From a virus: a DNA stretch of 64,000 bases. How positions within the stretch are numbered: position 1 is the first letter of the stretch; every line of letters starts with the position of its first letter. A model generated the notes under the pieces. The model saw nothing but the letters and a program-made list of their open reading frames with translations, did not search any database and was not told the DNA's origin. The position numbers and the translations under genes are program-made. Shown here in pieces: positions 621 to 58,049 of this stretch. The stretch lies in IMG/VR virus record IMGVR_UViG_3300024265_000043, positions 1 to 64,000 of that record; one strand, 5' to 3'.

Positions 621-967
621 ACCAAATAGCGAAGATAATTCAATCCTACGAATTTGTGTATCAAAATGAGACAGAACTTCAAGAGCAAATTGAATCTGTA
701 TTGAAGGACAATGATATTCCATTTGAACGGGAATATTCACTTGATAAGGATTCTCGGATAGATTTCTACCTACCTGAATCGAAAACAGGTATTGAGGTGA
801 AAGTGAAAAGCGGTGCTGCTGTTGTATCGAAACAACTCCACAGATATGCGAAAAGCAACCAGATTGATAATCTAATGCTCGTTACTACAAGGATGGATCA
901 TGTTATGCTCGATGGATTTGTGTACGGTGATATTAGGCTGGATGTTGTTTTCATAGGGGGATTTTGA
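617..967 (+). CDS. PD-(D/E)XK family nuclease (VRR-Nuc-like)
   Basis: This 116-residue protein has the core of a PD-(D/E)XK nuclease: an Asp in R-I-D-F (Asp49) followed by E-V-K-V-K (Glu60, Lys62), with hydrophobic strands on both sides. Stand-alone phage nucleases of this size, often called VRR-Nuc, commonly sit next to SNF2 helicases, and here the next gene is one. The likely role is a structure-specific or Holliday-junction-like endonuclease acting with that helicase. The first motif and catalytic triad are seen; the substrate is inferred. Confidence 0.7.
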   Translation: MNQIAKIIQSYEFVYQNETELQEQIESVLKDNDIPFEREYSLDKDSRIDFYLPESKTGIEVKVKSGAAVVSKQLHRYAKSNQIDNLMLVTTRMDHVMLDGFVYGDIRLDVVFIGGF

Positions 968-2646
968 TGCGCAACTATGGCGAGATGAGATTGGACACGG
1001 CAAACAATCAATGGATAATAACTGCTGATCGACATATCATGGCAAGGTTAAAGCGAGTGTTTGAGGGCTTGGCAAAATTCCCAAGAAAAGAAGTGAAGAT
1101 ATCGAATACTCCAGAACACTGCCTTGATCTTGAATGGTTTATGACGCGCTATCCGCTTGAAATTGTTGAAGGCGCGGATCAATTACGGGTTGGCTCACTT
1201 GCTTATAAATCTATGGTCGAAAGGCTTGATGATATGGCAGATCCCAATTATGAGCCGAAATCTCATCCTCTTGCAATTCCATTACGCGGATATCAAAATG
1301 TTGCTGTTGATATGTATCTGGAGCGTGGATCATTATTGCTTGGTGATGATGTGGGTGTCGGGAAAACAGCGGTCGGCATAGGCTCATTTACAGATAAACG
1401 AACTTTACCTGCGCTCGTGGTTACTCATGTGCATTTATTGCACCAGTGGGAAAGAGAGATCAATACCTTCATGCCCGAATTAAATACGCATGTAATTAAG
1501 CAGGGGCCTATCTATGCGTTGCCCGAAATGTTTGGGAAGGGCCCTGATGTTGTGATCACCAACTACCACAAAATTGCTAAATGGGCCACAGTGCTATCAT
1601 CCTACCTGAAATCTATCGTGTGGGATGAAGTTCAAGAATTAAGAAATGATGGTAGCCAAAAATATCAAGCAGCTCGGTCTTTAGTTGAATACGCCAATTT
1701 TGTTCTTGGATTATCGGCAACTCCCGTCTATAATTATGGAGGGGAATTTTTCAATATCATGGAGACGATCACACCAGGAGCGCTTGGGGAAAGATATGAA
1801 TTCAGGAGAGAATGGTGCAGCGGGAGATATGAGAATAAAATAAGTATCGTAGATCCTCCAGCATTCGGCGCGTATTTGCGAGAAAGTCATTTGATGCTCC
1901 GCAGAACCAGAAAAGATGTTGGGCGCGAACTAGAATCTCTCAGTAATGTAACTCATATAATTGATTCGGATTCTCGTGAAATTATTGACGAAGAGGGAAC
2001 TATAGATTCTTTGGCTAAAATACTGGTAAACAGCGAATCAACATCTCAAGAGAAATTTCAAGCAGGCGGTTTATTTGATCAGAAAATGAGAAAGGCCACA
2101 GGATTAGCCAAGGCCGGTTATGTAGCCCATTTCGTCAATATGCTGGTAGAATCGGGCGAAAAAGTTGTATTATTCGGTTGGCATAGAGAAGTTTATGAAA
2201 AATGGCTACACATGTTTTCGCCTATACAATGCAATCCCGTTATGTATACAGGGACAGAATCTCCCGCCAAGAAAGAGGCAGCAAGAGAGGCATTTATCAA
2301 TGGCGACTCCAAAGTTCTGATCATGTCGCTGCGGTCTGGTGCTGGGCTTGATGGTCTCCAATATAGCGGATGCAGAACAGTTGTGTATGGTGAAATGGAT
2401 TGGTCTCCAGGCATTCACGAACAATGCACTGGTCGCGTTTATAGGGACGGGCAAGAAGAGCCTGTAGTGGCATATTATCTGGTATGCGAAGATGGTTGCG
2501 ATCCATTCATGGTTAATGTGCTTGGGATCAAGAAGCAGCAATCCGATGGGATTAAGGACCCCGAGAAACAATTCGGTAAGAAAGAATCAATACAAAAGAA
2601 CATGGCCGACGTAGCCCGTCATTACTTGGAGAGGAAAAAGAATTGA
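967..2646 (+). CDS. SNF2/superfamily 2 DNA helicase
   Basis: A 559-residue SF2 ATPase. Motif I is G-D-D-V-G-V-G-K-T (about residue 127), motif II is W-D-E-V-Q (a DEXQ variant of DEAH), motif III is L-S-A-T-P, and motif VI lies in T-G-R-V-Y-R-D-G-Q. The N-terminal 100 residues precede the helicase core and are not recognised. ATG at 967 overlaps the nuclease stop and follows a purine-rich AGGGGG; a TTG at 964 is an alternative. Pairing with the upstream nuclease suggests a shared role in DNA processing or branch resolution. A second, unrelated SNF2-type gene lies at 46.2 kb. Confidence 0.88.
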   Translation: MRNYGEMRLDTANNQWIITADRHIMARLKRVFEGLAKFPRKEVKISNTPEHCLDLEWFMTRYPLEIVEGADQLRVGSLAYKSMVERLDDMADPNYEPKSHPLAIPLRGYQNVAVDMYLERGSLLLGDDVGVGKTAVGIGSFTDKRTLPALVVTHVHLLHQWEREINTFMPELNTHVIKQGPIYALPEMFGKGPDVVITNYHKIAKWATVLSSYLKSIVWDEVQELRNDGSQKYQAARSLVEYANFVLGLSATPVYNYGGEFFNIMETITPGALGERYEFRREWCSGRYENKISIVDPPAFGAYLRESHLMLRRTRKDVGRELESLSNVTHIIDSDSREIIDEEGTIDSLAKILVNSESTSQEKFQAGGLFDQKMRKATGLAKAGYVAHFVNMLVESGEKVVLFGWHREVYEKWLHMFSPIQCNPVMYTGTESPAKKEAAREAFINGDSKVLIMSLRSGAGLDGLQYSGCRTVVYGEMDWSPGIHEQCTGRVYRDGQEEPVVAYYLVCEDGCDPFMVNVLGIKKQQSDGIKDPEKQFGKKESIQKNMADVARHYLERKKN

Positions 2647-4163
2647 GGAAGAATTTGATAATAAATAAGGATGTCATAGAAGGATTGAAAGGAATTCCTG
2701 ATGAATCCATTCAGTGTTGCGTGACTTCGCCGCCGTATTGGGGCTTGCGCGATTATGGAGTCGACGGCCAGCTAGGATTAGAGCCGACATTGGAAGAATA
2801 TATCGCCAAGATGGTCGAGGTCTTCCAGGAAGTCAAGCGAGTGCTCCGAAAGGATGGTACTTGTTGGGTGAATTTGGGCGATGCTTATGCAGGTGGCGGA
2901 CGTGGGGGCAATCCAGCAGAATCCAAACATCGGAAACAGGCGCCCAATGTGGGGTCTTTGATAAGTCCGTCAAAGATACCGGCCAATCTCAAGGCCAAAG
3001 ACATGATCGGGACGCCCTGGCGCATTGCTTTTGCCTTGCAACAACCGCAATATACCGGAGATATTAAGGACATCAAAGATAGGGTATGGCTAGCTGCTGC
3101 CATTGATGGCGAAGGATGTATGTTTATCCACAAGAGGAAAAAAGGTCAGAGTAACGGCCAGGGATATGTGCGAAAAAATGCTTCCTATGGTGCCGGTTTA
3201 GAAGTGGCAAATACCAATAAAGCGTTCGTCGAAAAATGCATGGAAATAACCGGGAAAGGGAGCATTTGCCATCAGGACTTGGGAAGACGACAGAGAATAT
3301 ATCGCTGGAATCTTCGCTCGAATGAATGCCGAAAAGTTATTGAACAAATCTATCCTCATTTAGTTATCAAACAACATGAAGCGCGATTGCTTATTGGATG
3401 CCCAAGTTCTGGTGAAAAAGCACATGAGGCTCATCAATCTGTTATTGCCCTACATAATGGAGGGGAAGCAACTATTGATTTCGATCCTCCAAATTCTATG
3501 TATGAGCCAGGTTGGTATTTAAGAAGTGATATTATATGGTCAAAGTCGAATCCGATGCCTGAGAGCGTCACCGATAGACCCACTAAAAGCCACGAATATA
3601 TCTTTCTGCTGACCAAATCGGCGCGGTATTACTATGATGCGGAAGCGATAAAAACGGCGCCCGCCGAATCTACCATCAATGACAAGCGTGGTAATGATGA
3701 TGGTACCAGGTCGGACAGAAACTATCCCGGAAGTCCGAGCAACGGTGGGACAAACTTGGGGGGCCCAATCAGGGGCAGTGCCGGTGGGTTCCGACCAAAT
3801 TCAGGGCGCCGACAAAAGTGGCCCGGCATAGGGCCCCAACATGGCGCCCAACGCGACAGGGGCGAGAAATATGAGCCTATGGCTACGCATCAGAGAGTGA
3901 ATCGCCGCACGGTCTGGAATATCCCTGCCCAAGCCTACCCCGAAGCACATTTTGCCACCTTCCCTGAGATGATACCGAAACTTTGCATACTGGCGGGATC
4001 TAAGAGAGGCGACACAATCCTTGACCCCTTCCTTGGATCCGGCACCACCGGCATGGTTGCGCAAAACGAGGGCCGTGAGTGGATAGGCATCGAATTGAAT
4101 CCAGAATATGCCGAAATGGCCCGAAAAAGAACCAAAATCATTCAAACATCCATGAATTTCTAG
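2643..4163 (+). CDS. DNA N4/N6 methyltransferase (beta class) interrupted by a LAGLIDADG domain
   Basis: The ends of this 506-residue protein form a site-specific DNA methyltransferase. The catalytic motif T-S-P-P-Y-W-G lies near residue 30. The SAM-binding motif D-P-F-L-G-S-G-T-T-G lies near residue 460, so the motif order is IV then I (beta class). Between F-A-L-Q-Q-P (about residue 135) and P-G-W-Y-L-R (about residue 289) an extra 154 residues are inserted in frame, carrying a LAGLIDADG endonuclease signature. A Gly/Pro/Arg-rich stretch follows at about 345-400. The start is TTG, overlapping the helicase stop, with GGAGAGG upstream. Probable role: protecting phage DNA from restriction. Whether the interrupted protein is active is unknown. 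Confidence 0.88.
   Translation: MRKNLIINKDVIEGLKGIPDESIQCCVTSPPYWGLRDYGVDGQLGLEPTLEEYIAKMVEVFQEVKRVLRKDGTCWVNLGDAYAGGGRGGNPAESKHRKQAPNVGSLISPSKIPANLKAKDMIGTPWRIAFALQQPQYTGDIKDIKDRVWLAAAIDGEGCMFIHKRKKGQSNGQGYVRKNASYGAGLEVANTNKAFVEKCMEITGKGSICHQDLGRRQRIYRWNLRSNECRKVIEQIYPHLVIKQHEARLLIGCPSSGEKAHEAHQSVIALHNGGEATIDFDPPNSMYEPGWYLRSDIIWSKSNPMPESVTDRPTKSHEYIFLLTKSARYYYDAEAIKTAPAESTINDKRGNDDGTRSDRNYPGSPSNGGTNLGGPIRGSAGGFRPNSGRRQKWPGIGPQHGAQRDRGEKYEPMATHQRVNRRTVWNIPAQAYPEAHFATFPEMIPKLCILAGSKRGDTILDPFLGSGTTGMVAQNEGREWIGIELNPEYAEMARKRTKIIQTSMNF
3048..3509 (+). mobile_element. in-frame LAGLIDADG homing endonuclease domain insertion
   Basis: This 462-nt segment encodes about 154 residues that interrupt the conserved methyltransferase block F-A-L-Q-[Q/x]-P-G-W-Y-L-R-S-D. 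It contains the single-motif form W-L-A-A-A-I-D-G-E-G, then a Y-G-A-G-L-E-V-A-N-T segment and a G-K-G-S-I turn, as in small LAGLIDADG endonucleases. Removing it restores a Pro codon followed by Gly-Trp-Tyr. There is no Cys/Ser at its start and no His-Asn at its end, so it does not look like an intein. The frame stays open throughout, so it is probably not a separately spliced intron. Boundaries are inferred to within a few codons. Confidence 0.72.
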
Positions 4164-4171
4164 GAGATATT

Positions 4172-4528
4172 ATGCTTAAAATATTCAAGAATCTATTCTC
4201 GAAATCCAATGTAATCGCAGATACTGTGAAAATCATTGATCAAGCCGTGGAGGATAAAGACCTTCGCAATACGCTCACCGCTAAACTATTGGAAGCCGAA
4301 CTGACTGGCTCAAGAGCCCAGAGAAATTGGCGACCTCATCTCATGTATGTAATGATGTTCCTGCTGATTTGGATCGTTGTTATAATCCCAATCTCTGAAG
4401 TGTATTTTGGTGTTAAGGTGCCAATTAAGGAATATCTCGCAGCGGTACCCCAACAACTTTGGACATTGCTTACGGTAACTACGACTGGTTATATTGGGTT
4501 GCGCTCATTTATTGATAAGAAAGGTTAA
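4172..4528 (+). CDS. holin-like membrane protein
   Basis: A 118-residue protein with a basic, amphipathic N-terminus, then the pattern R-N-W-R-P-H-L-M-Y followed by a transmembrane segment (about residues 53-70), and a second hydrophobic segment near the C-terminus before the basic end R-S-F-I-D-K-K-G. The W-R-P motif and two to three membrane spans match the three-TM holin family known from gene-transfer agents and phages. The start at 4172 is chosen because TAGGAG precedes it; a longer frame from 4079 lies inside the methyltransferase gene. It is far from the endolysin at 15.6 kb, so the lysis genes are split. Confidence 0.7.
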   Translation: MLKIFKNLFSKSNVIADTVKIIDQAVEDKDLRNTLTAKLLEAELTGSRAQRNWRPHLMYVMMFLLIWIVVIIPISEVYFGVKVPIKEYLAAVPQQLWTLLTVTTTGYIGLRSFIDKKG

Positions 4529-4529
4529 A

Positions 4530-5180
4530 ATGGGATCAAAAATTATAACAAAAGTAGTTCTAGATCGAAGAGTAATCAAACAGCCAATACCGCAACTAAA
4601 TGACGGTGGTGATTGCGGGGCTTGTGTTCTGGGCGGATTGCTTGACCTAGGAGGTGATTCAACGGCACAAATCGGTAAAATTTATGTAGCCTTTTGTGAA
4701 AGCGAAGCCAAGTCGATTAGCCAGCCGAAAATGCTGAGCATTCTTGGTGAAATCAAATCTAGGGGATTGGTAGAGGAATTTATCCATAATGTCCCTATCT
4801 GGCAAAGACCAGATTCAGTATCCCAATTTGGTTCGCCCGGTTGGACTATGGCGTCGCAATGGTATCAATATATCAAAATGGCAATTCGGGCTGGATATTA
4901 TGGGATGGCAATGGTGACGAGCAAAGGCCGAGGGAATCATGCAGAATTGGATCATTGGGTAATGATTTGCGGATTCAGACAACGTGAAATCCCGAATCCT
5001 CACACTCGGAACAGCAAAGACCCAAAAATGCGAGAATCAACAATAATCACACAAGAAATATTAATCTCAAATAGCAGCATAAAAGCAAAAGATGAGCGAT
5101 GGATAGAAACTCGCGATTTTCTAAAACGATTCGGCGGATATAACGCGATTCTTGTGTTGCTTACAAAAAAGGATAAATAG
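4530..5180 (+). CDS. putative papain-like cysteine peptidase
   Basis: A 216-residue protein. The N-terminal P-Q-L-N then D-C-G-A-C (Cys29 or Cys32) followed by a Gly/Leu helix resembles the Gln/Cys active-site start of papain-like and C39-like peptidases. H-A-E-L-D-H-W-V-M-I-C-G (His142) resembles their His strand. ATG at 4530 directly follows the holin stop; a longer frame from 4494 overlaps the holin. The fold and the Gln-Cys-His order are visible; catalytic activity, substrate and stage are not. Possible roles are virion protein maturation, lysis, or cleaving a host protein. Confidence 0.5.
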   Translation: MGSKIITKVVLDRRVIKQPIPQLNDGGDCGACVLGGLLDLGGDSTAQIGKIYVAFCESEAKSISQPKMLSILGEIKSRGLVEEFIHNVPIWQRPDSVSQFGSPGWTMASQWYQYIKMAIRAGYYGMAMVTSKGRGNHAELDHWVMICGFRQREIPNPHTRNSKDPKMRESTIITQEILISNSSIKAKDERWIETRDFLKRFGGYNAILVLLTKKDK

Positions 5181-6184
5181 TGGCCGAATTGATCAAACTT
5201 GAACCAGGTAAATCCAAATTATATTTGGGGGTTGATGATAATGAAGTTGACGATTCACCTCAAGAATTTGAATGGACTTGGATCAAAGCCGCGACAAAAC
5301 TCAGGAAAAAAGGCAGTTTCGTCGAGCATTTGGAAGCAGGTCGTTTTGGAATATATAAGAAGATTGGCATTCATTCATATGAATTTCAAGAAGGGCACAG
5401 AGCAATCTGTAGATTCAACAACGAGAGATTTGAGCATACTCACAATACAATTATAATGTCAATGGACGATTATGAATCTTCTATTTGTGGTAGAGAACTT
5501 GAAAATGGCGTAGTAATCGTTCGAGGGGCTGAATACACAGGGAAGCCTAGTATCGAAAAATTTAATCCAGAAGAATTTTTTGCTCTTCCGAGATATACAA
5601 GCGGTCAATGTAAAATGATGGCAACGGAGCGGGTAGAGCGTGATATTTCCGAGAAAGCGGTTGGCTGGCATGATCTTCCTGTAAAGGGATATGAATTCAA
5701 AACGAAATGGGAAGCAAGATATAGTTTATTCTATGGAACACTCAGAAAAGAAATGGTACTTGTCGCCAAACGCGGCGCTTCACAACAGCAGATAGATGAT
5801 GCAATTGATCTTCCTCCAAGCATCTTAGCCCTTATAGCAAGAAAATTAACTCTTGCTGAATCTGAATATTATATTGCGAGAATGGTGGAATATATTGAGA
5901 CCAATCCCCAAGCCATGTCAAATCCATCCATAAATTATAAAGTTCATCAAGCAACTCTTGAGGAAATCAATATAGAGCGTCTGAGAAACTTGCAAAGATT
6001 ACATGGCGATAATGTGAATCCATCTATCGAGAAAGCACTGAATGATGCTCTGACGCGATATTGGAAATTAGTACCAAAGGATGCAATATCTGACGCAAAG
6101 CCAAAAAACAATTATAATGCCGCTCCACCATCAAAAGAGAATAGTCACCAAGATAATGATCGCAATGATGATGGTATGTTTTAA
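5180..6184 (+). CDS. hypothetical protein upstream of terminase (possible small terminase subunit)
   Basis: A 334-residue protein that starts with GTG overlapping the previous stop (TAGTG) and has AAAGGA upstream. Its stop overlaps the ATG of the large terminase. The last 35 residues are Asn/Asp/Ser-rich and look disordered. I recognise no domain. Its place directly before the terminase fits a packaging role such as DNA recognition, but it is longer than most small terminases and no helix-turn-helix is obvious. Confidence 0.55.
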   Translation: MAELIKLEPGKSKLYLGVDDNEVDDSPQEFEWTWIKAATKLRKKGSFVEHLEAGRFGIYKKIGIHSYEFQEGHRAICRFNNERFEHTHNTIIMSMDDYESSICGRELENGVVIVRGAEYTGKPSIEKFNPEEFFALPRYTSGQCKMMATERVERDISEKAVGWHDLPVKGYEFKTKWEARYSLFYGTLRKEMVLVAKRGASQQQIDDAIDLPPSILALIARKLTLAESEYYIARMVEYIETNPQAMSNPSINYKVHQATLEEINIERLRNLQRLHGDNVNPSIEKALNDALTRYWKLVPKDAISDAKPKNNYNAAPPSKENSHQDNDRNDDGMF

Positions 6185-8325
6185 TGGCTATTTTTGATCA
6201 ATCTAAATATCCAGCCCTTACCTCTATAGGCGAAGAGAGTGTTTCGTGTATTAATCTGCCTATAGGTCATCCAGCATATCTTCATCCTATGCAAATTTAT
6301 ATATGGATGCATAATCCCTATCAAGCTGTTACTGATATTTATGAAACCAAAATGCCAATTGAACAAAGTCGAAGATTCGATCATCTAATCAATTGTAGAT
6401 TCATGGGGGACGATAGCGGTAGATCAACAGGAAAAACGTTTACATATATACAATTCATGGCAATTAGAGGAATTTGCAGTAACTATTATATGAATGTTCT
6501 ATTAGGACAAGATGCAAGTATTGGTGTTGAATTATTCAAAAAGCACTATGGCCCCCAGATGAGGGATAATGATAATTTTAAAAGATTCTTTCATACTGCT
6601 GGCCGCAAAACCCCTAGAGTATCAACAGACGGAATGATTTCTCATATCACTACTTATTCTGGCTCAGTTATACAAGCAATGACTCCTAGCGTTCAGAAGA
6701 AATTCGCAAAAATGCAATCATGGCGAGCGAACGATGGCATATTCAATGAAGTAACCACATGGCCTAACACCAAATTAATTCCAGAAACGATTGAACCTAT
6801 TTTCACAAATGGGACTCCACGTTATGTCAAAACAAAAGCATTTCGGGAAAGAATGGAAGAAATATCTGGGATTGAATTAGGATGGCTTACGAACGAAATA
6901 TTAGAAAAAAGGCATCAAAATCCTGGGTATGTTCCCAGAGAGCACATGATTAATGCCACCCTTCTTAAATGGGAAGATATAAAAGAGAAATTCTTCCTTA
7001 GTTTTGATTATACATATGGTTTTGAATATAAATATGGCATGGATAATGAGCAGATTGGATTTGAAGAAATCAAATCTATGAATGATATCGTTATGTTTTT
7101 CAGAAACTATGACGAAGGCGATCCTGTCTATTTCAATAAGCTTATTTATGACGGCAGTGCAAAAAGGCCATCAGATGATTCATATTGGATCCATAAAGAT
7201 TTCAAAAAAAGGATTAAAGAGGGGAATAGATTATATGCTCAATATTCCATAGGAGTTGATGACATCCCAACAGAATGGGATGGTATCATATATGAATCTG
7301 CCATTGTTGAAAAAGCCCGTGAATCAATGCTTGACGAAGATTTTCAGCGCGTCTGGAACGGCAAATGGACAGAAGGTAGATCCAAGAAGCCCTTCACCCT
7401 TAAAGAAATACTTGACTGCCAAGAGGCGGGCTATTTAGGAAGAATTGGAAGAGAATCGCTAACGGATGAGCATATAAGCGGGATTGATTCGGCTCAGGGC
7501 ACCGACAAGCAGCATTCCACTGAAGAAGGGGTCAAAGATGGTCGTGGCGATGATGGGGCGGAAACAATTTGGAAAGTGGGCGCAGGAACTCCTGAAAGTC
7601 CCCATGAGCTTTGTCTTGTGAGTATTGCTGAAGACGTGAGATCAGAAATATGGGCGCTTGAAATCCAAAAAAATGAACAAGCATTTCAAGGCGAATCAGA
7701 AATAGGCTGTATAATAAATATCGTGGACCCAGGCGGCGGCGGAAAGGCCACTATCGAAAGACTTGCAAAACGTCGGCTTGAGGTGAAAGGCATAGAATAT
7801 GATTTTGATCCGCTTGTTCCATATGATCATCAAGCACCATTAGAAGGATCAAAAAGATCCATTGTAATGTTTAGTCTCTCGAATGAAATGATAAAAACAT
7901 TCCTGATCGCCAGCAAGACTGAAAAAGTAATGATGCAACAACAAGATCAGTTGAATAATTATATGGTTACGAGAGCGCAGAAACTTATTAGAAATAAATG
8001 TATTAAATTCCCCCAATATCTTGATGTATCAATGCTTAATGTTATGCACAACGAGGGGAAGATTGATGATGATGTGTTCATAAATTTGATAAATATTCGG
8101 ACAGCATTGAATCAGTTATTACATCTAGAGTTTGAAACTGACAAAAATGGTAAAAAAGTCAAGACCAAAAACGGCGTATATCGCTATGTCTCTAAGGGGA
8201 ATAAAGATGTCGCTCTCGCAATTTTGTATGGTATATTTGGATGTGATATGTTTGTCAAACTTAATTCTATTGGCGATAAATCAAATCAGCCAACAACCTC
8301 ATCTTACATGCCTGTAATAGGTTAG
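6184..8325 (+). CDS. terL: terminase large subunit
   Basis: This 713-residue protein is the packaging motor. The ATPase half has a Walker A-like G-R-S-T-G-K-T (about residues 79-85) and a Walker B-like I-F-N-E-V (about residue 187). The C-terminal half has nuclease-type motifs: G-I-D-S-A-Q-G (about residue 435) and I-V-D-P-G-G-G-G-K (about residue 514), as in the RNase H-like domain that cuts concatemers. It is larger than typical TerL proteins (450-600 residues), with extra sequence around 240-330. The portal gene follows after 9 nt. Confidence 0.85.
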   Translation: MAIFDQSKYPALTSIGEESVSCINLPIGHPAYLHPMQIYIWMHNPYQAVTDIYETKMPIEQSRRFDHLINCRFMGDDSGRSTGKTFTYIQFMAIRGICSNYYMNVLLGQDASIGVELFKKHYGPQMRDNDNFKRFFHTAGRKTPRVSTDGMISHITTYSGSVIQAMTPSVQKKFAKMQSWRANDGIFNEVTTWPNTKLIPETIEPIFTNGTPRYVKTKAFRERMEEISGIELGWLTNEILEKRHQNPGYVPREHMINATLLKWEDIKEKFFLSFDYTYGFEYKYGMDNEQIGFEEIKSMNDIVMFFRNYDEGDPVYFNKLIYDGSAKRPSDDSYWIHKDFKKRIKEGNRLYAQYSIGVDDIPTEWDGIIYESAIVEKARESMLDEDFQRVWNGKWTEGRSKKPFTLKEILDCQEAGYLGRIGRESLTDEHISGIDSAQGTDKQHSTEEGVKDGRGDDGAETIWKVGAGTPESPHELCLVSIAEDVRSEIWALEIQKNEQAFQGESEIGCIINIVDPGGGGKATIERLAKRRLEVKGIEYDFDPLVPYDHQAPLEGSKRSIVMFSLSNEMIKTFLIASKTEKVMMQQQDQLNNYMVTRAQKLIRNKCIKFPQYLDVSMLNVMHNEGKIDDDVFINLINIRTALNQLLHLEFETDKNGKKVKTKNGVYRYVSKGNKDVALAILYGIFGCDMFVKLNSIGDKSNQPTTSSYMPVIG

Positions 8326-9990: not shown

Positions 9991-10178
9991 TGACAATCAG
10001 CACGCCACATCGAGACACTTCTATATGTGAGCAAATAAGGTCAATGATGTCCAAGAAATCAAGACGAGGCGTTAAAATGTATAAAGAGTCCTATATATAC
10101 GATTATATAGCGGAACAATACGATCTTGCCGCCAGAACTGTTGAAAATATATGGCGATCAAAGCAATATAGGGAGTAA
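9990..10178 (+). CDS. small putative helix-turn-helix protein
   Basis: A 62-residue basic protein starting at an ATG that overlaps the portal stop (TAATG). The segment Y-I-A-E-Q-Y-D-L-A-A-R-T-V-E-N-I (about residues 38-53) has the spacing of a helix-turn-helix ending in a recognition helix, like those in sigma-factor region 4 or Mor-type activators. Two copies of a short dyad overlap and follow its stop codon, which could be its own binding site. Function is inferred from a short match only. Confidence 0.5.
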   Translation: MTISTPHRDTSICEQIRSMMSKKSRRGVKMYKESYIYDYIAEQYDLAARTVENIWRSKQYRE

Positions 10179-10209
10179 CTATCTCCCAATTAGGGAGCAA
10201 CTTCCTCCC
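10171..10209. promoter_or_regulatory. two tandem 17-bp dyads, 22 bp apart
   Basis: GGGAGtAACtatCTCCC (10171-10187) and GGGAGcAACttcCTCCC (10193-10209) are near-identical inverted repeats whose starts are 22 bp apart, two turns of the DNA helix. That phasing fits side-by-side protein binding. They overlap the end of the small helix-turn-helix gene and lie about 43-80 bp before the protease gene. They could also fold as two weak RNA hairpins, but no T tract follows. Confidence 0.55.
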
Positions 10210-10215
10210 ATATTG

Positions 10216-45867: not shown

Positions 45868-46097
45868 TCTTCCTCCGCCTTGTATCCCGTTACTACAACT
45901 CCAAATATTCGTTCTATATCAGAGCATACGCTATCCGCATAAGAATCTCGGGCTTTACGATTAAGAAAATTGCTAATGTCAGACGGATCTCTTTCTAGCA
46001 TTGTAGCCAGTCTTCTTTGGGTTGTTATCCCTCTTCCTCGAAAATGTTCAAGTAGATCATCAAGAGGAATATTTATCGTATTTACAATATTTACCAT
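45864..46097 (-). CDS. small helix-turn-helix regulator (Cro/XRE-like)
   Basis: A 77-residue protein with the helix-turn-helix pattern T-T-Q-R-R-L-A-T-M-L-E-R-D-P-S-D-I-S-N-F-L split as helix-turn-recognition helix (about residues 25-45). It follows the only sizeable gap after the helicase gene, where a candidate promoter lies, so it may start a transcript and control it. It heads a set of tiny overlapping genes. Confidence 0.65.
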   Translation of the reverse strand: MVNIVNTINIPLDDLLEHFRGRGITTQRRLATMLERDPSDISNFLNRKARDSYADSVCSDIERIFGVVVTGYKAEEE

Positions 46098-46142
46098 TGG
46101 TTTGTCTTCATTATTTCCATTTGTTCGTGTTCTGGGGTTCCA

Positions 46143-46174: not shown

Positions 46175-48100
46175 CTATTTAGTAATTCTTTCTATTAATT
46201 CATCTACAGTGTTGAAATCGTCCCCTTCGCTAATAATTCCATCGGTGGCGGCATTCACTACCTTCCGCTTCGCTTCGATGATATCTTGAATCTCCAAATC
46301 AATAGTCTCTTCTCCGATAAGGTAATATGCTGTGACGGCATTCTCCTGACCAATCCTTAGCGCCCTATCTTCGGCCTGATCGTGCTCTGCTGGTGTCCAT
46401 CCAAGTTCCAAGAATACTAGATTGGAAGCCGCTGTTAAAGTGATGCCAACGCTACCTGCTTTAAGTGAGCATATAATAATTTTGCAGTCAGAATTTTGAA
46501 ATCTATCTACATTAGATGCCCTAGTTGCAGCGTCATCTTCTCCCATGATTCTAGCAGCGTCTGGGTACTTTCCCAAGAGGGCTTTCTGGATTTCGATATG
46601 ATTGGCAAAGACGATCAATTTTTCATCAGTTTCAAGAAAGTTATCAATCCATTCGATTGCTGGATCCATTTTGCCCTTAGCGGATAATCCCTTCAGATGC
46701 TCAATTCTCGTGAGTTGGAGAGCCTTTTCGGCCTTGACTGCCTTTGATGCTCTATGAGTTTTAATAGCAACATCCTTCGCTTCTTGATTCATGTGCTGGA
46801 TAGTATCTAGAAAATTTTGCTCTACCTTGGCATTGTCCTTCAGCCATAGGATCAGATCTTTCTCAGCCGCTTTATATTGGGTTAAATTGGTGATCTGGAT
46901 GGGTATATCAACGCGTTGCTTAGTAGGAAGGTCTGGAAGCACCTCGGCCTTAGTTCTCCGGATAAAACATGTGGCACGTAGTCTCTCATGCAATTCGGCC
47001 AAGTTTGATGATCCAGTTATATCATTCCCGAAGAATCCTTTCTTTCTATCGCAATATCTGCCAGTGAAATCATACCATCCGCCGAAATCTTCAAGCCTTC
47101 CAAGAATTTGAAGCTGAGAGATCAATTCAGATGGTCGGTTCATAATCGGCGTACCTGTGAGGGCAAATCTATATTGAATCTTTTTTGATAATTGAATCAA
47201 TCCCCTTGTGCGTTGGCTTTTACCTGATTTCGCCATTTGAGATTCATCAATAATGAGAGTCTTGGGGAATATGTCCAGCAATCGCTCAATGATGCCGTTG
47301 CTACTGGAGCCGAGCCCCTTCTTTTTGCAATGCTCTTTTACATAAGCTTTGTCATCCGTTTTCCAAGGCTTTGTGGGTTCCTTGATGATAGCGCCAACAT
47401 TTAATTCTTTCCCGTCCATATTCATTGGGTGAATGACTTCCCAAGTGTTGGGTTGCGGCTTGAGAATATCATAATTGAGGATCACGACATCATAAGAGCC
47501 AGGTAAATTGTGTACATCAGGAGCCATATGCATCCTGCCATTGATGATATACGCATGGTAGAATTGCTTTTTCTCCGCTACGGATACTCTCTTGCCCTCT
47601 AGCCATTCTAAGGTCTCTTGGGCCCACTTGTGCTTCATTGACGCAGGCGTTATGACAACGGCTGGATAAGCGCCAAGGTCTTGAATGGTGGCGAGGGCTT
47701 GTATGGTCTTGCCTACCCCCATATCATCGGCCATGAAGGTTCTCTCAGCCTTTATGGCGTATTCAACTCCCGCCTTCTGGAATGGATAGAGAGTTTTGCC
47801 CAATCCATCAACTTCGTATTCAGATGTAATTGCGCGGGACATATTGAGAAGGCTATTTTTATCTTTCCCGATATTGAGTAGCGCATGTTCGGCCTCTGGG
47901 GTGATCGTGAAGCCATGTTTGGCTACGATATCGAATATTGGATTGACATTTTCCTGATTAATGGGAGCCGTCCACCATTTATTATCGCCGTCGTAAGTTC
48001 TAGCGGGGAGAGTCTTCACATCATCTACGACTGTTCTATTGAAGTCAAACAAGATGTATAGGCGTTGATTCTTGAGGAATATTTGACGGCCTTTATTCAA
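46175..48100 (-). CDS. SNF2-family helicase with HARP-like N-terminus
   Basis: A 641-residue helicase. The N-terminal 100 residues (L-Y-I-L-F-D-F-N and W-W-T-A-P) resemble the HARP domain of annealing helicases. Motif I is D-D-M-G-V-G-K-T, motif II D-E-S-Q, then A-L-T-G-T-P, and the C-terminal D-R-A-L-R-I-G-Q carries the arginine finger. It may rewind or reverse forks during replication. TTG at 48100 has AAGGAG 7 nt upstream and overlaps a zinc-ribbon gene; GTG at 48142 (14 codons longer) is the alternative, but its ribosome site is 13 nt away. Confidence 0.88.
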   Translation of the reverse strand: MNKGRQIFLKNQRLYILFDFNRTVVDDVKTLPARTYDGDNKWWTAPINQENVNPIFDIVAKHGFTITPEAEHALLNIGKDKNSLLNMSRAITSEYEVDGLGKTLYPFQKAGVEYAIKAERTFMADDMGVGKTIQALATIQDLGAYPAVVITPASMKHKWAQETLEWLEGKRVSVAEKKQFYHAYIINGRMHMAPDVHNLPGSYDVVILNYDILKPQPNTWEVIHPMNMDGKELNVGAIIKEPTKPWKTDDKAYVKEHCKKKGLGSSSNGIIERLLDIFPKTLIIDESQMAKSGKSQRTRGLIQLSKKIQYRFALTGTPIMNRPSELISQLQILGRLEDFGGWYDFTGRYCDRKKGFFGNDITGSSNLAELHERLRATCFIRRTKAEVLPDLPTKQRVDIPIQITNLTQYKAAEKDLILWLKDNAKVEQNFLDTIQHMNQEAKDVAIKTHRASKAVKAEKALQLTRIEHLKGLSAKGKMDPAIEWIDNFLETDEKLIVFANHIEIQKALLGKYPDAARIMGEDDAATRASNVDRFQNSDCKIIICSLKAGSVGITLTAASNLVFLELGWTPAEHDQAEDRALRIGQENAVTAYYLIGEETIDLEIQDIIEAKRKVVNAATDGIISEGDDFNTVDELIERITK

Positions 48101-48269
48101 TTGAGGTCTCCTTGTTCCGGTGTAATTTATCAGGCCAGCCACTATTGCTCTGGTGTCCTTCGGGTCTGCATCCAGTACATGATTCTTGTTCGTCTTGATC
48201 CTCAGTCCAATAATAATCTGTGGCAGTATTAGCTATAGTCAAACATGTCGGACAAATGAATATTGACAT
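48093..48269 (-). CDS. 58-residue zinc-ribbon protein
   Basis: ATG at 48269, 2 nt after the Thg1-like gene, opens a 58-residue protein with I-C-P-T-C (residues 6-9) and C-T-G-C (31-34), a complete four-Cys zinc site. It ends inside the start region of the helicase, overlapping the preferred TTG start by 8 nt. Small zinc ribbons next to helicases or RNA enzymes often bind nucleic acid. Confidence 0.55.
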   Translation of the reverse strand: MSIFICPTCLTIANTATDYYWTEDQDEQESCTGCRPEGHQSNSGWPDKLHRNKETSIE

Positions 48270-53648: not shown

Positions 53649-54266
53649 TTATCCCCATTGTTCTGCAAAGGCGTTGGCGATTCCAGGCAGTATCAATGCC
53701 CGATCTTTCCCGCGATTTGGTCCCGGTGACATTTTATGAATGCGTGCCTCTCTGCCATCTACAATATTCGTCGGTTTAAGTAGTGGGAGTCCCTTAACTT
53801 GCAATTGAGTCGCCTTGGTTTCTCCATGTCCGAACATCCACGGTTGAATTATTTGACACAAAAAATCGTCAAGCGTCCCAATTATTTTTTGGCCCCATCC
53901 ATGCATGATAGGGTTCTCCATGACGATTTTCTCAATCTCTGCATGAGCAATATCACGGTAAAACACCGCGCCATCTATCAAATCTTTCCATCTCTGGGTG
54001 CCTCTTTGCACCTTTGCGATATCTAAGTATTTAGTGCTCGGATATAACCATCTTACTCCAGAATTCGCCAAGTATGTGCATGGGGGGAATGCAATCATCA
54101 TGTCCCATCCATCATTTATAATATCCATCACATCGCCTTGATAGTGTGGCCCCGGCGATTCAGTTGGTAAAATATCGCAACTTGTCGCGTCGTGCCCCTT
54201 CGCAAGGAAAGCATTCCGAACACGCCCTGAATACTCACAAGCGATTAGAATTTTCTTGGGGTTCAT
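53649..54266 (-). CDS. putative DNA methyltransferase (cytosine-C5-like fold)
   Basis: A 205-residue protein. I-A-C-E-Y-S-G-R-V-R-N-A-F near the start resembles the SAM-binding strand-loop of this fold, S-C-D-I-L-P follows as the acidic second strand, and I-A-F-P-P-C-T-Y-L-A matches the P-P-C catalytic motif of cytosine-C5 enzymes. It is shorter than usual C5 methyltransferases, which have over 300 residues, so the target-recognition region is small or missing. These stand-alone proteins are common in phages. Its stop overlaps the next gene. Confidence 0.65.
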   Translation of the reverse strand: MNPKKILIACEYSGRVRNAFLAKGHDATSCDILPTESPGPHYQGDVMDIINDGWDMMIAFPPCTYLANSGVRWLYPSTKYLDIAKVQRGTQRWKDLIDGAVFYRDIAHAEIEKIVMENPIMHGWGQKIIGTLDDFLCQIIQPWMFGHGETKATQLQVKGLPLLKPTNIVDGREARIHKMSPGPNRGKDRALILPGIANAFAEQWG

Positions 54267-56008: not shown

Positions 56009-57667
56009 CTATTTATCTATTGTTACCATCCTTGCATTTACTCCCGTTTGCCTGAATGATTCAGCTCCCTTAAACGAACCTTCTTCCAGTTTTTCAGCGC
56101 ATCCATTGACATCTTCCAGCCATTCCCGAAACTCCACGGCCTTGGCGTCTGTTCTGAAAAATGGGCTTTCACTCATTAGACAGACCACTCGCCCGCCGTC
56201 GTTCAGCATCTCAAAGGCTCTCTTGATGTGGTCAATATCTGCCATTTTCTCAAAGGGCGGATTCATTATGATGCGGTCAAATGGTGAGCAATTCCGCCAG
56301 AAATCCACGTCTAGGAAATCCCACCCGCCTAAATCGTGTCCCTTGGCTTTTAGAATCTTCCGAAGGGTAGAATTTACCTCCACGGTTTTTAAATATGCGT
56401 TGGGCCACAATTCCTTGATAGCGTCGGCAATATCGCCCTTGCCCGCCGATGGCTCTAAAATGGTGTTGCTCTCTTCAATGGCTGCTCTCTCAATCATCAA
56501 ATCAATTACAGGGCGTGGAGTGGGGAAAAATCCGTCTATTTTGCACCCGATTAATTCCCGTTCAAGTTCTGCAATTGTTCGCGCCTTAATCTCCGCTTCT
56601 GTTGGTGGCTTAATATATGCCTCCAGCGCTGCCATGACTTCGGCGGAATTAGATTCCTTCACACCTGCCTTTTTCGTTCTGTCGGTCCCGTACCATTTCC
56701 AACCCTCGGGATGATAAGAGGCACGGGCGGCATTATCTAAAATATCAGCGATAACCGCCTTGGATCTGATAGCCTTTAAACAGTCTGGAAGTGTTCCCGC
56801 TTCGATATCATTAGCAAGACCGTAGAGCACAGATTGAATTTTTTGCAATCGTTCGCCGTCTTTTCGCATGGATTCGGCAATCCTTGCCCGCCTAGCTGTT
56901 GGGTTCTGCTGGCTGACTCCAGAATTAAATTTCCCGTCAATTTGTGCGGTCATCTTGTCGGCCATTGCCCGCAATTTATCGCCGTTCTCTTTTATCAAGG
57001 TTTCCCCCTTCGGCCTGGTGGACTTGGCGGTCTGTTCTACTGCTTGCCCTGCCAGTTCCTCAGCTAATAGCCTTTGCTGTTCGTGGTCCTTGGCATACCA
57101 AAAGCCGTATTTCCGATGCCAACGAAAGCCAGTATTTTTTAAACGATCCCTGATTTCTGCCGAAGGTTTGGCCGTGAATATCAATTCAATACCGTTTTTA
57201 TTTGGATTCTCTCGCAATTCGCAAAGTGCGCTCGTGCTGGTTGCCTGTTCTTTGGGTGCCTGTTCTGGTTTTGCGTCGGTTTTGGGTAGTTGGTTTCCCC
57301 CCTCTTCCATAATAATCAGCGCCAATTGATCCACATAATGAGAGCCTTGCAGGTCATATTTGCGAATTTCCCACCCTGTATCATGTCGATAACCGCCTTT
57401 GAGGAAATAGCCCGCACCCATCGAATACTTTTGGCGGTGTTCTTGCTTTTTGTCGTCGCCTGTTAGGTGTTGAACCTCTTCAAAGCCTGAAGCCTTGGCA
57501 ATTTTCCGCATTTCTGAGAAAATATCGCGATTGTGCCCGCTGAATCCTAACAACACCGCTCGCACTTCACGAGAACCGAAATAATCGCTCTGCATGTCGC
57601 TGGTATCTTCTTTATAGATAGCAACGATTGCCCCTTTGGTGCCTATTGGCATCAGTTCAGCCAGCAA
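56009..57667 (-). CDS. N6-adenine-type DNA methyltransferase, C-terminal part of a split gene
   Basis: A 552-residue frame. Near residues 146-200 it has F-T-A-K-P ... G-F-R-W-H-R-K-Y-G-F-W-Y, a small accessory module. SAM-binding is L-E-P-S-A-G-K-G-D-I-A (about 391-401) and the catalytic motif is I-M-N-P-P-F (about 466-471), so it is an N6-adenine-type enzyme. The TTG start at 57667 has AGGGC upstream. Removing one copy of a 19-bp tandem repeat joins this frame to the upstream gene without a stop, giving one 673-residue protein. It is probably the catalytic part of a broken fused gene; re-initiation may still make it. Confidence 0.7.
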   Translation of the reverse strand: MLAELMPIGTKGAIVAIYKEDTSDMQSDYFGSREVRAVLLGFSGHNRDIFSEMRKIAKASGFEEVQHLTGDDKKQEHRQKYSMGAGYFLKGGYRHDTGWEIRKYDLQGSHYVDQLALIIMEEGGNQLPKTDAKPEQAPKEQATSTSALCELRENPNKNGIELIFTAKPSAEIRDRLKNTGFRWHRKYGFWYAKDHEQQRLLAEELAGQAVEQTAKSTRPKGETLIKENGDKLRAMADKMTAQIDGKFNSGVSQQNPTARRARIAESMRKDGERLQKIQSVLYGLANDIEAGTLPDCLKAIRSKAVIADILDNAARASYHPEGWKWYGTDRTKKAGVKESNSAEVMAALEAYIKPPTEAEIKARTIAELERELIGCKIDGFFPTPRPVIDLMIERAAIEESNTILEPSAGKGDIADAIKELWPNAYLKTVEVNSTLRKILKAKGHDLGGWDFLDVDFWRNCSPFDRIIMNPPFEKMADIDHIKRAFEMLNDGGRVVCLMSESPFFRTDAKAVEFREWLEDVNGCAEKLEEGSFKGAESFRQTGVNARMVTIDK

Positions 57668-58049
57668 TATTTTGCCCTGTTCTCGCTTGGTCTCTCGATC
57701 TTCCAGTGGTCTCTCGATCTTCCAGTGCTCGCTCGTTGTTCTGCTTGCGCTGCTCTTTTGCCCTCATAGCAATATCACGCGCCGCCAAAGCTTCTTCTGC
57801 TGTTCTCATTTCGCCAGTTAGACGGAATCCATAGCGGTTGCCTCCCACTGGCTCAATTTGGCTATGTGCAACTTGTGTGGTGCCAGGCGTGTCGGTCCAG
57901 GCAATGTTTATCATGTTACCCACTTCAAAGATGATACCTTTATCATGGGTGCCCCTGTTCTCATATTGAACGACTGCACCAACTTTAAGGCCTTCGGCGG
58001 TGTTCGGCTGATGCCCGTTGTTCATATCAAAAATACTAATGACTGTCAT
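57657..58049 (-). CDS. N-terminal part of the split methyltransferase gene
   Basis: A 130-residue protein. The first 70 residues have the beta pattern of a small SH3-like DNA or protein-binding domain (V-G-A-V-V-Q-Y-E-N-R-G, I-N-I-A-W-T-D), followed by an Arg/Glu-rich helix. Its last 19 residues (after E-D-R-E-T) arise only because of the tandem duplication; without it the frame continues into the methyltransferase. AAAGGGCAAAAC precedes the ATG. I treat it as the N-terminal domain of the ancestral enzyme. Confidence 0.65.
   Translation of the reverse strand: MTVISIFDMNNGHQPNTAEGLKVGAVVQYENRGTHDKGIIFEVGNMINIAWTDTPGTTQVAHSQIEPVGGNRYGFRLTGEMRTAEEALAARDIAMRAKEQRKQNNERALEDRETTGRSRDQARTGQNIAG
57689..57726. 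repeat. 19-bp tandem duplication that splits a methyltransferase gene
   Basis: GGTCTCTCGATCTTCCAGT occurs twice in a row (57689-57707 and 57708-57726), identical in all 19 bases. Because 19 is not a multiple of 3 it shifts the frame of the upstream gene near its C-terminus and creates a stop 57 codons... of ordinary length later it ends at 57657. Deleting one copy yields a continuous reading frame through both genes. Confidence 0.85.

Follow-up and report, generated by a model that had tools for sequence, protein, structure and literature searches.

Layout of the locus and the tandem duplication

The locus was studied in a window of 64,000 nucleotides, positions 1-64000 of an IMG/VR phage record of 83,714 bases (83.7 kb), whose remaining 19.7 kb was examined too. 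Two reading frames lie end to end on the minus strand. The upstream frame, ORF1 (57657..58049, 130 aa), carries an N-terminal domain and the first half of a charged linker, as assigned from the ORF list, a pairwise match and codon usage; its last ~16 residues form an out-of-frame tail that ends at a TGA (57657..57659). The downstream frame, ORF2 (56009..57667, 552 aa), comprises the end of the linker, an FPEMRK-type domain, a WYAK/WYSR-type module, a helical-looking region and a C-terminal N6-adenine methyltransferase, according to the ORF list, PHROG and alignments. The two frames exist as the earlier note had described them, and the odd overlap that it pointed out amounts to 11 nt.

Two candidate starts of ORF2 are found at this junction. 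A TTG (57665..57667) overlaps the end of ORF1 and is preceded by the Shine-Dalgarno (SD)-like sequence CAGGGCAAAATA, which resembles the SD-like AAAGGGCAAAAC in front of the ORF1 ATG. An in-frame ATG (57650..57652, MPIGTK...) follows 15 nt downstream of the TTG and 4 nt past the ORF1 stop, with the spacing TGA-ACTG-ATG; it sits exactly at the start of the conserved FPEMRK-type domain and is a candidate re-initiation start by a published distance rule (PMC10666635). The SD-like pairing is -3.6 kcal/mol for the TTG and -2.0 for the ATG, versus -4.4 for ORF1, and the signals of ORF2 are thus weak.

The sequence contains an exact, unstranded tandem array of 19 bp in 2.1 copies at 57688..57727, over the whole of which the period-19 match extends. 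It consists of two identical abutting copies (57688-57706 and 57707-57725) followed by two more matching bases, and the duplication placed earlier at 57689-57726 is the same array read in another register. It is the single exact tandem duplication of at least 8 bp in the 64-kb window, and no other with a period of at least 8 was found there or in the 19.7 kb of the record beyond it. In 20 first-order Markov shuffles of the window the tandem period never exceeded 10; the duplication is beyond chance. The lag-19 match goes on imperfectly for ~11 bases past the exact array, a pre-existing similarity of a sort that can seed slippage. Tandem repeats that are short and imperfect, of 18-23 bp with 81-89% matches, also occur at 10164-10210 and 46088-46132, both outside large ORFs, and at 7001-7037, where the 18-bp unit, a multiple of three, lies within a 713-aa ORF.

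The position and length of the duplication match the change of frame. Counted from the ORF1 ATG, the first ATG of the conserved domain (57652) comes after 397 nt, or 3x132+1, and 19 is likewise 6x3+1, so the duplication by itself accounts for the offset between ORF1 and ORF2. Without the extra copy, 126 and 547 residues join into one frame of 673 residues, the length that had been predicted for the fused product. A codon-usage score trained on other genes of the window switches its preference from the ORF1 frame to the ORF2 frame at the duplication. The break falls in the charged linker, which is probably a coiled coil there, outside any domain, and a second lesion is absent from the 552 + 130 codons. 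A programmed +1 ribosomal frameshift was also considered and rejected: neither a slippery heptamer nor an RF2-like site was obvious by eye at the junction, and the homologs need no shift.

The methyltransferase and its family

The designation of the protein as an N6-adenine methyltransferase, made earlier from the letters alone, is borne out by several comparisons. The C-terminal part of ORF2 matches the PHROG 'DNA methyltransferase' family (1.6e-74), and profile matches were obtained to 7vru (1e-7), TaqI (2ibs, 6e-5) and HsdM (3lkd, 9e-5). A TP motif N-terminal to the methyltransferase core (FFPTPRP) aligns with the FPTP of most relatives, and the catalytic NPP(Y/F) motif is present as MNPPFEKM, its PPF being invariant in the longer alignment of relatives, A3; invariant methyltransferase columns beyond these two motifs are also kept in the window protein. 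TP and NPP(Y/F) motifs mark the polyvalent-protein adenine methyltransferases, the archetype of which is DarB of phage P1 (Iyer and colleagues, PMC5512222). These enzymes are usually, though not universally, fused to a SWI2/SNF2 helicase, coupling by gene neighbourhood has been described as well, and a helical LPD36 domain with GXG(G/A/S) can precede the methyltransferase (PMC5512222).

The window protein resembles this DarB-type group (EcoKI/TaqI-like gamma class) in its C-terminal methyltransferase with TP and NPPF, in the helical-looking region ahead of it, in its profile matches to M.TaqI and type I HsdM, and in the presence of an SNF2 helicase gene in the same phage. On these motifs and matches, the predicted enzyme belongs to the polyvalent-protein (DarB-type, gamma class) adenine methyltransferases. 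It differs from that group in size (~550-670 aa), in being unfused to SNF2 and in its N-terminal FPEMRK-type domain. The conserved region before the methyltransferase is helical-looking, GXG(G/A/S) is not clear in it by eye, and LPD36 was not returned by Pfam. No SNF2 domain was found in ORF2; a stand-alone SNF2/SWI2 helicase of 655 aa, assigned by domain match, is encoded at 46175..48142 on the minus strand and may be linked to the ORF2 methyltransferase. A second SNF2-type helicase domain lies within 964-2646 (+). A second putative DNA methyltransferase is found a few genes off at 53649-54266 (-) (phrog_757, E 1e-49), and the phage may thus carry two DNA-modifying enzymes.

The FPEMRK-type domain (57347..57652, minus strand; FPEMRK...EHREKYSMGAGYYLK) was delimited by alignment to ~105 residues, residues 6-107 of ORF2. 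It occurs widely, in plasmids, in proviruses and in the genomes of Bacteroidales and Proteobacteria, with N-terminal domains that vary. No Pfam, PHROG or NCBIfam model matched ORF1 or this domain.

One gene in the relatives

When the first 150 residues of ORF2 were used as the query, plasmid proteins were retrieved in which an N-terminal domain and then a charged linker lead, without a change of frame, into the ~105-residue conserved domain. A set of 124 relatives was then compiled from IMG/VR and GTDB genome scans with the domain alignment and from an IMG/VR scan with alignment A3. The long frame is open across the equivalent point in 118 of the 124; four are naturally short (L024, L031, L099 and L126), and two, in draft or metagenome contigs, are apparently broken by frameshifts of their own (L080 and L128). 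These last two frameshifts, at ~900-1088 of a Vibrio owensii draft contig and ~1700-1850 of a metagenomic virus contig, appear independent and lie near the border of linker and domain without a tandem duplication, and sequencing error is possible in both.

Of the 24 methyltransferase-bearing relatives, 23 carry an unbroken N-terminal extension in the same frame, mostly 113-143 aa in length versus 126 here, and their total length is mostly 634-675 aa versus the 673 implied here; the other is L099. The fused gene that the earlier note had proposed to look for in related phages is present in every methyltransferase relative of the same layout (23/23), and a search among the relatives for a split at the same point that lacks the duplication, which would have spoken for two genes, found none. 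Neither the break of the window nor its 19-bp repeat occurs in any of the 124; on the sequences compared, the insertion is private to the phage of the window.

Full-length relatives in proviruses and bacterial genomes include those of two IMG/VR records (3300005347_000207, L020, and 2903506739_000001, L016), of Pseudovibrio (L040) and of Roseibium (L043). They share with the window the order of N-terminal extension, linker, FPEMRK domain and methyltransferase, at 634-675 aa, and are ~32-34% identical to it across the C-terminal 550 residues, but their frame is uninterrupted and the sequence of their N-terminal domain differs from that of the window. In Leisingera and Tritonibacter conjugative plasmids, annotated as a hypothetical protein and a DUF4942 protein, a one-frame extended FPEMRK protein is followed closely by a methyltransferase gene. 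The two are separate genes there, whereas they are fused in the window, which has its break upstream of both; the module thus occurs divided at another point too.

Evidence that the coding sequence once ran through the junction also comes from each half. The ORF2-frame alignment to a Desulfovibrio ferrophilus protein reaches upstream of the TTG and into the linker. The N-terminus of ORF1 resembles that of a one-piece Desulfovibrio plasmid protein (MT-I--FD--NG--P-T; pairwise E 2e-4). The profile of the N-terminal extension from the methyltransferase relatives matches ORF1 weakly (E 0.02), and homology of the ORF1 N-terminal domain is for this reason argued from the one pairwise match, its position and its length.

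L099 (IMG/VR 3300032116_000318, 4432-6156) begins 23 residues ahead of the conserved domain; the N-terminal domain and the greater part of the linker are naturally missing from it, and its methyltransferase is intact. It presents the conserved domain and the methyltransferase as a stand-alone phage gene of 574 aa, upstream of which no gene for the N-terminal domain was seen; a phage can thus carry the domain and the methyltransferase without the N-terminal domain.

Of 76 non-redundant linkers of relatives, 4 contain an exact tandem duplication of 8-10 bp, where the rate elsewhere in the same loci would predict 1.3 (p = 0.04), which hints that the linker may be repeat-prone. In all four the gene stays open and the units differ from that of the window. 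One of them, the full-length L036, keeps an open frame although 10 bp are exactly duplicated in tandem in its linker, ~50 nt ahead of position 4016.

Origin and consequences of the split

If the assembly is right, ORF1 and ORF2 almost certainly descend from a single gene that the duplication split: the relatives are whole and none has the same break, as the claim of one methyltransferase gene cut by a repeat had required. The opposite reading, that the two were always separate genes which merely overlap, could appeal to the four short forms that start near the conserved domain, but the linker is in frame in 118 of 124 relatives, alignment and coding signal cross the junction, and the frame offset equals that produced by an exact 19-bp duplication; this reading was rejected.

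A duplication introduced by assembly or sequencing, with a single copy in the real genome, is unlikely. A 40-bp array is well within the span of short reads, and the usual errors are indels of one base or in homopolymers rather than exact 19-bp duplications; both points count against an artefact, as does the lack of any further such duplication in 83.7 kb. The record is an IMG/VR virus record, and a lone frameshift among whole homologs is often an error (PMC3711429), which leaves the artefact some weight. The reversible ON/OFF slip suggested earlier, in which a 19-bp copy, lost and later regained, would toggle the protein between a one-piece and a split form and so evade host restriction, is improbable. 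Phase-variable mod genes offer a likeness, being methyltransferase genes with an internal tandem repeat of a unit length not divisible by three, and the repeat tract of the window (19 bp x 2.1, exact) coincides with the frame transition, as in slipped-strand phase-variable genes; a 19-bp unit would shift the frame at each change of copy number, and the modest enrichment of exact repeats in the relatives' linkers points the same way. However, mod carries more than 30 copies of the short unit AGTC (PMC3711429), whereas the window has two 19-bp copies. The array is in no relative, the repeats of relatives are of other units and leave the gene open, and no variant was seen in IMG/VR. A pattern common to the one- and two-copy forms gave 0 matches in IMG/VR, with even the record of the window unmatched, and no close relative of the phage was found by megablast, the exact junction pattern, ORF1 or the sliding-clamp gene, and near-identical records may be absent from these collections. 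It is very improbable that both forms persist in phage populations as a selectable split/fuse switch, by which slippage would set the tethering of the methyltransferase to its N-terminal domain; if true, the specificity or timing of anti-restriction methylation would be tuned and the enzyme would never be off. The split is an ordinary mutation, and probably a one-off.

A null allele, in which the duplication inactivates the protein since the N-terminal domain must be attached or ORF2 is untranslated, and decay is beginning, is possible but the less favoured outcome. It would agree with a frameshift private to this contig, with the attachment of the N-terminal extension in nearly all relatives and with the weak ribosome-binding signals of ORF2. 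Against it stand the absence of a second lesion, the retention of all methyltransferase motifs, the natural short form with a methyltransferase in L099 and the favourable stop-restart spacing. The loss of function proposed earlier does not necessarily follow, since both parts are domain-complete with intact motifs and ORF2 has two plausible starts.

Split expression by termination-reinitiation is favoured over the null allele, with a probability of roughly 0.5, and there is about an even chance that the second half is still made and functional. A distance of -8 to +10 nt between stop and start is treated as predictive of reinitiation, which as measured in E. coli and Haloferax is strongest at overlaps or very short distances and largely lost by ~20-40 nt (PMC10666635). 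The +4 spacing of the ATG lies within this range and counts for reinitiation; the junction has the geometry of a coupled pair, with a start no more than ~10 nt from the stop (the ATG at 4 nt, the TTG in an overlap of 11 nt). This arrangement is not conserved, the homologs being one-piece. In the GeneTack classification, a singleton frameshift with whole homologs mostly reflects an indel or an error of sequencing and not a functional arrangement (PMC3711429), a pattern that, together with the weak SD-like pairing, counts against split expression.

The proposed course of events begins with a single phage gene for a polyvalent-type N6-adenine methyltransferase of ~673 residues. A 19-bp duplication arose in its charged linker, likely by slippage seeded by the imperfect repeat, and the resulting +1 shift ends the N-terminal domain at the TGA. 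The ATG 4 nt further on could then open the conserved domain and methyltransferase in the other frame, with the SD-like TTG overlapping the stop as a second possible entry. Most likely, one message would give two polypeptides through termination-reinitiation or internal initiation, and both halves of the split gene may still be made. The methyltransferase would remain, its level lowered or altered, uncoupled from the N-terminal domain.

No functional test of the FPEMRK-methyltransferase family as an anti-restriction factor was found in the literature. Members of the family, which combine an N-terminal extension with an FPEMRK-type domain and with an adenine methyltransferase of the polyvalent kind, are spread across proviruses, plasmids and genomes, and annotators should take care to treat ORF1 and ORF2 as one ancestral gene. 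The locus is a clear case of a phage gene seen shortly after a tandem duplication shifted its frame, at a position where division into two parts may be tolerated by the protein.
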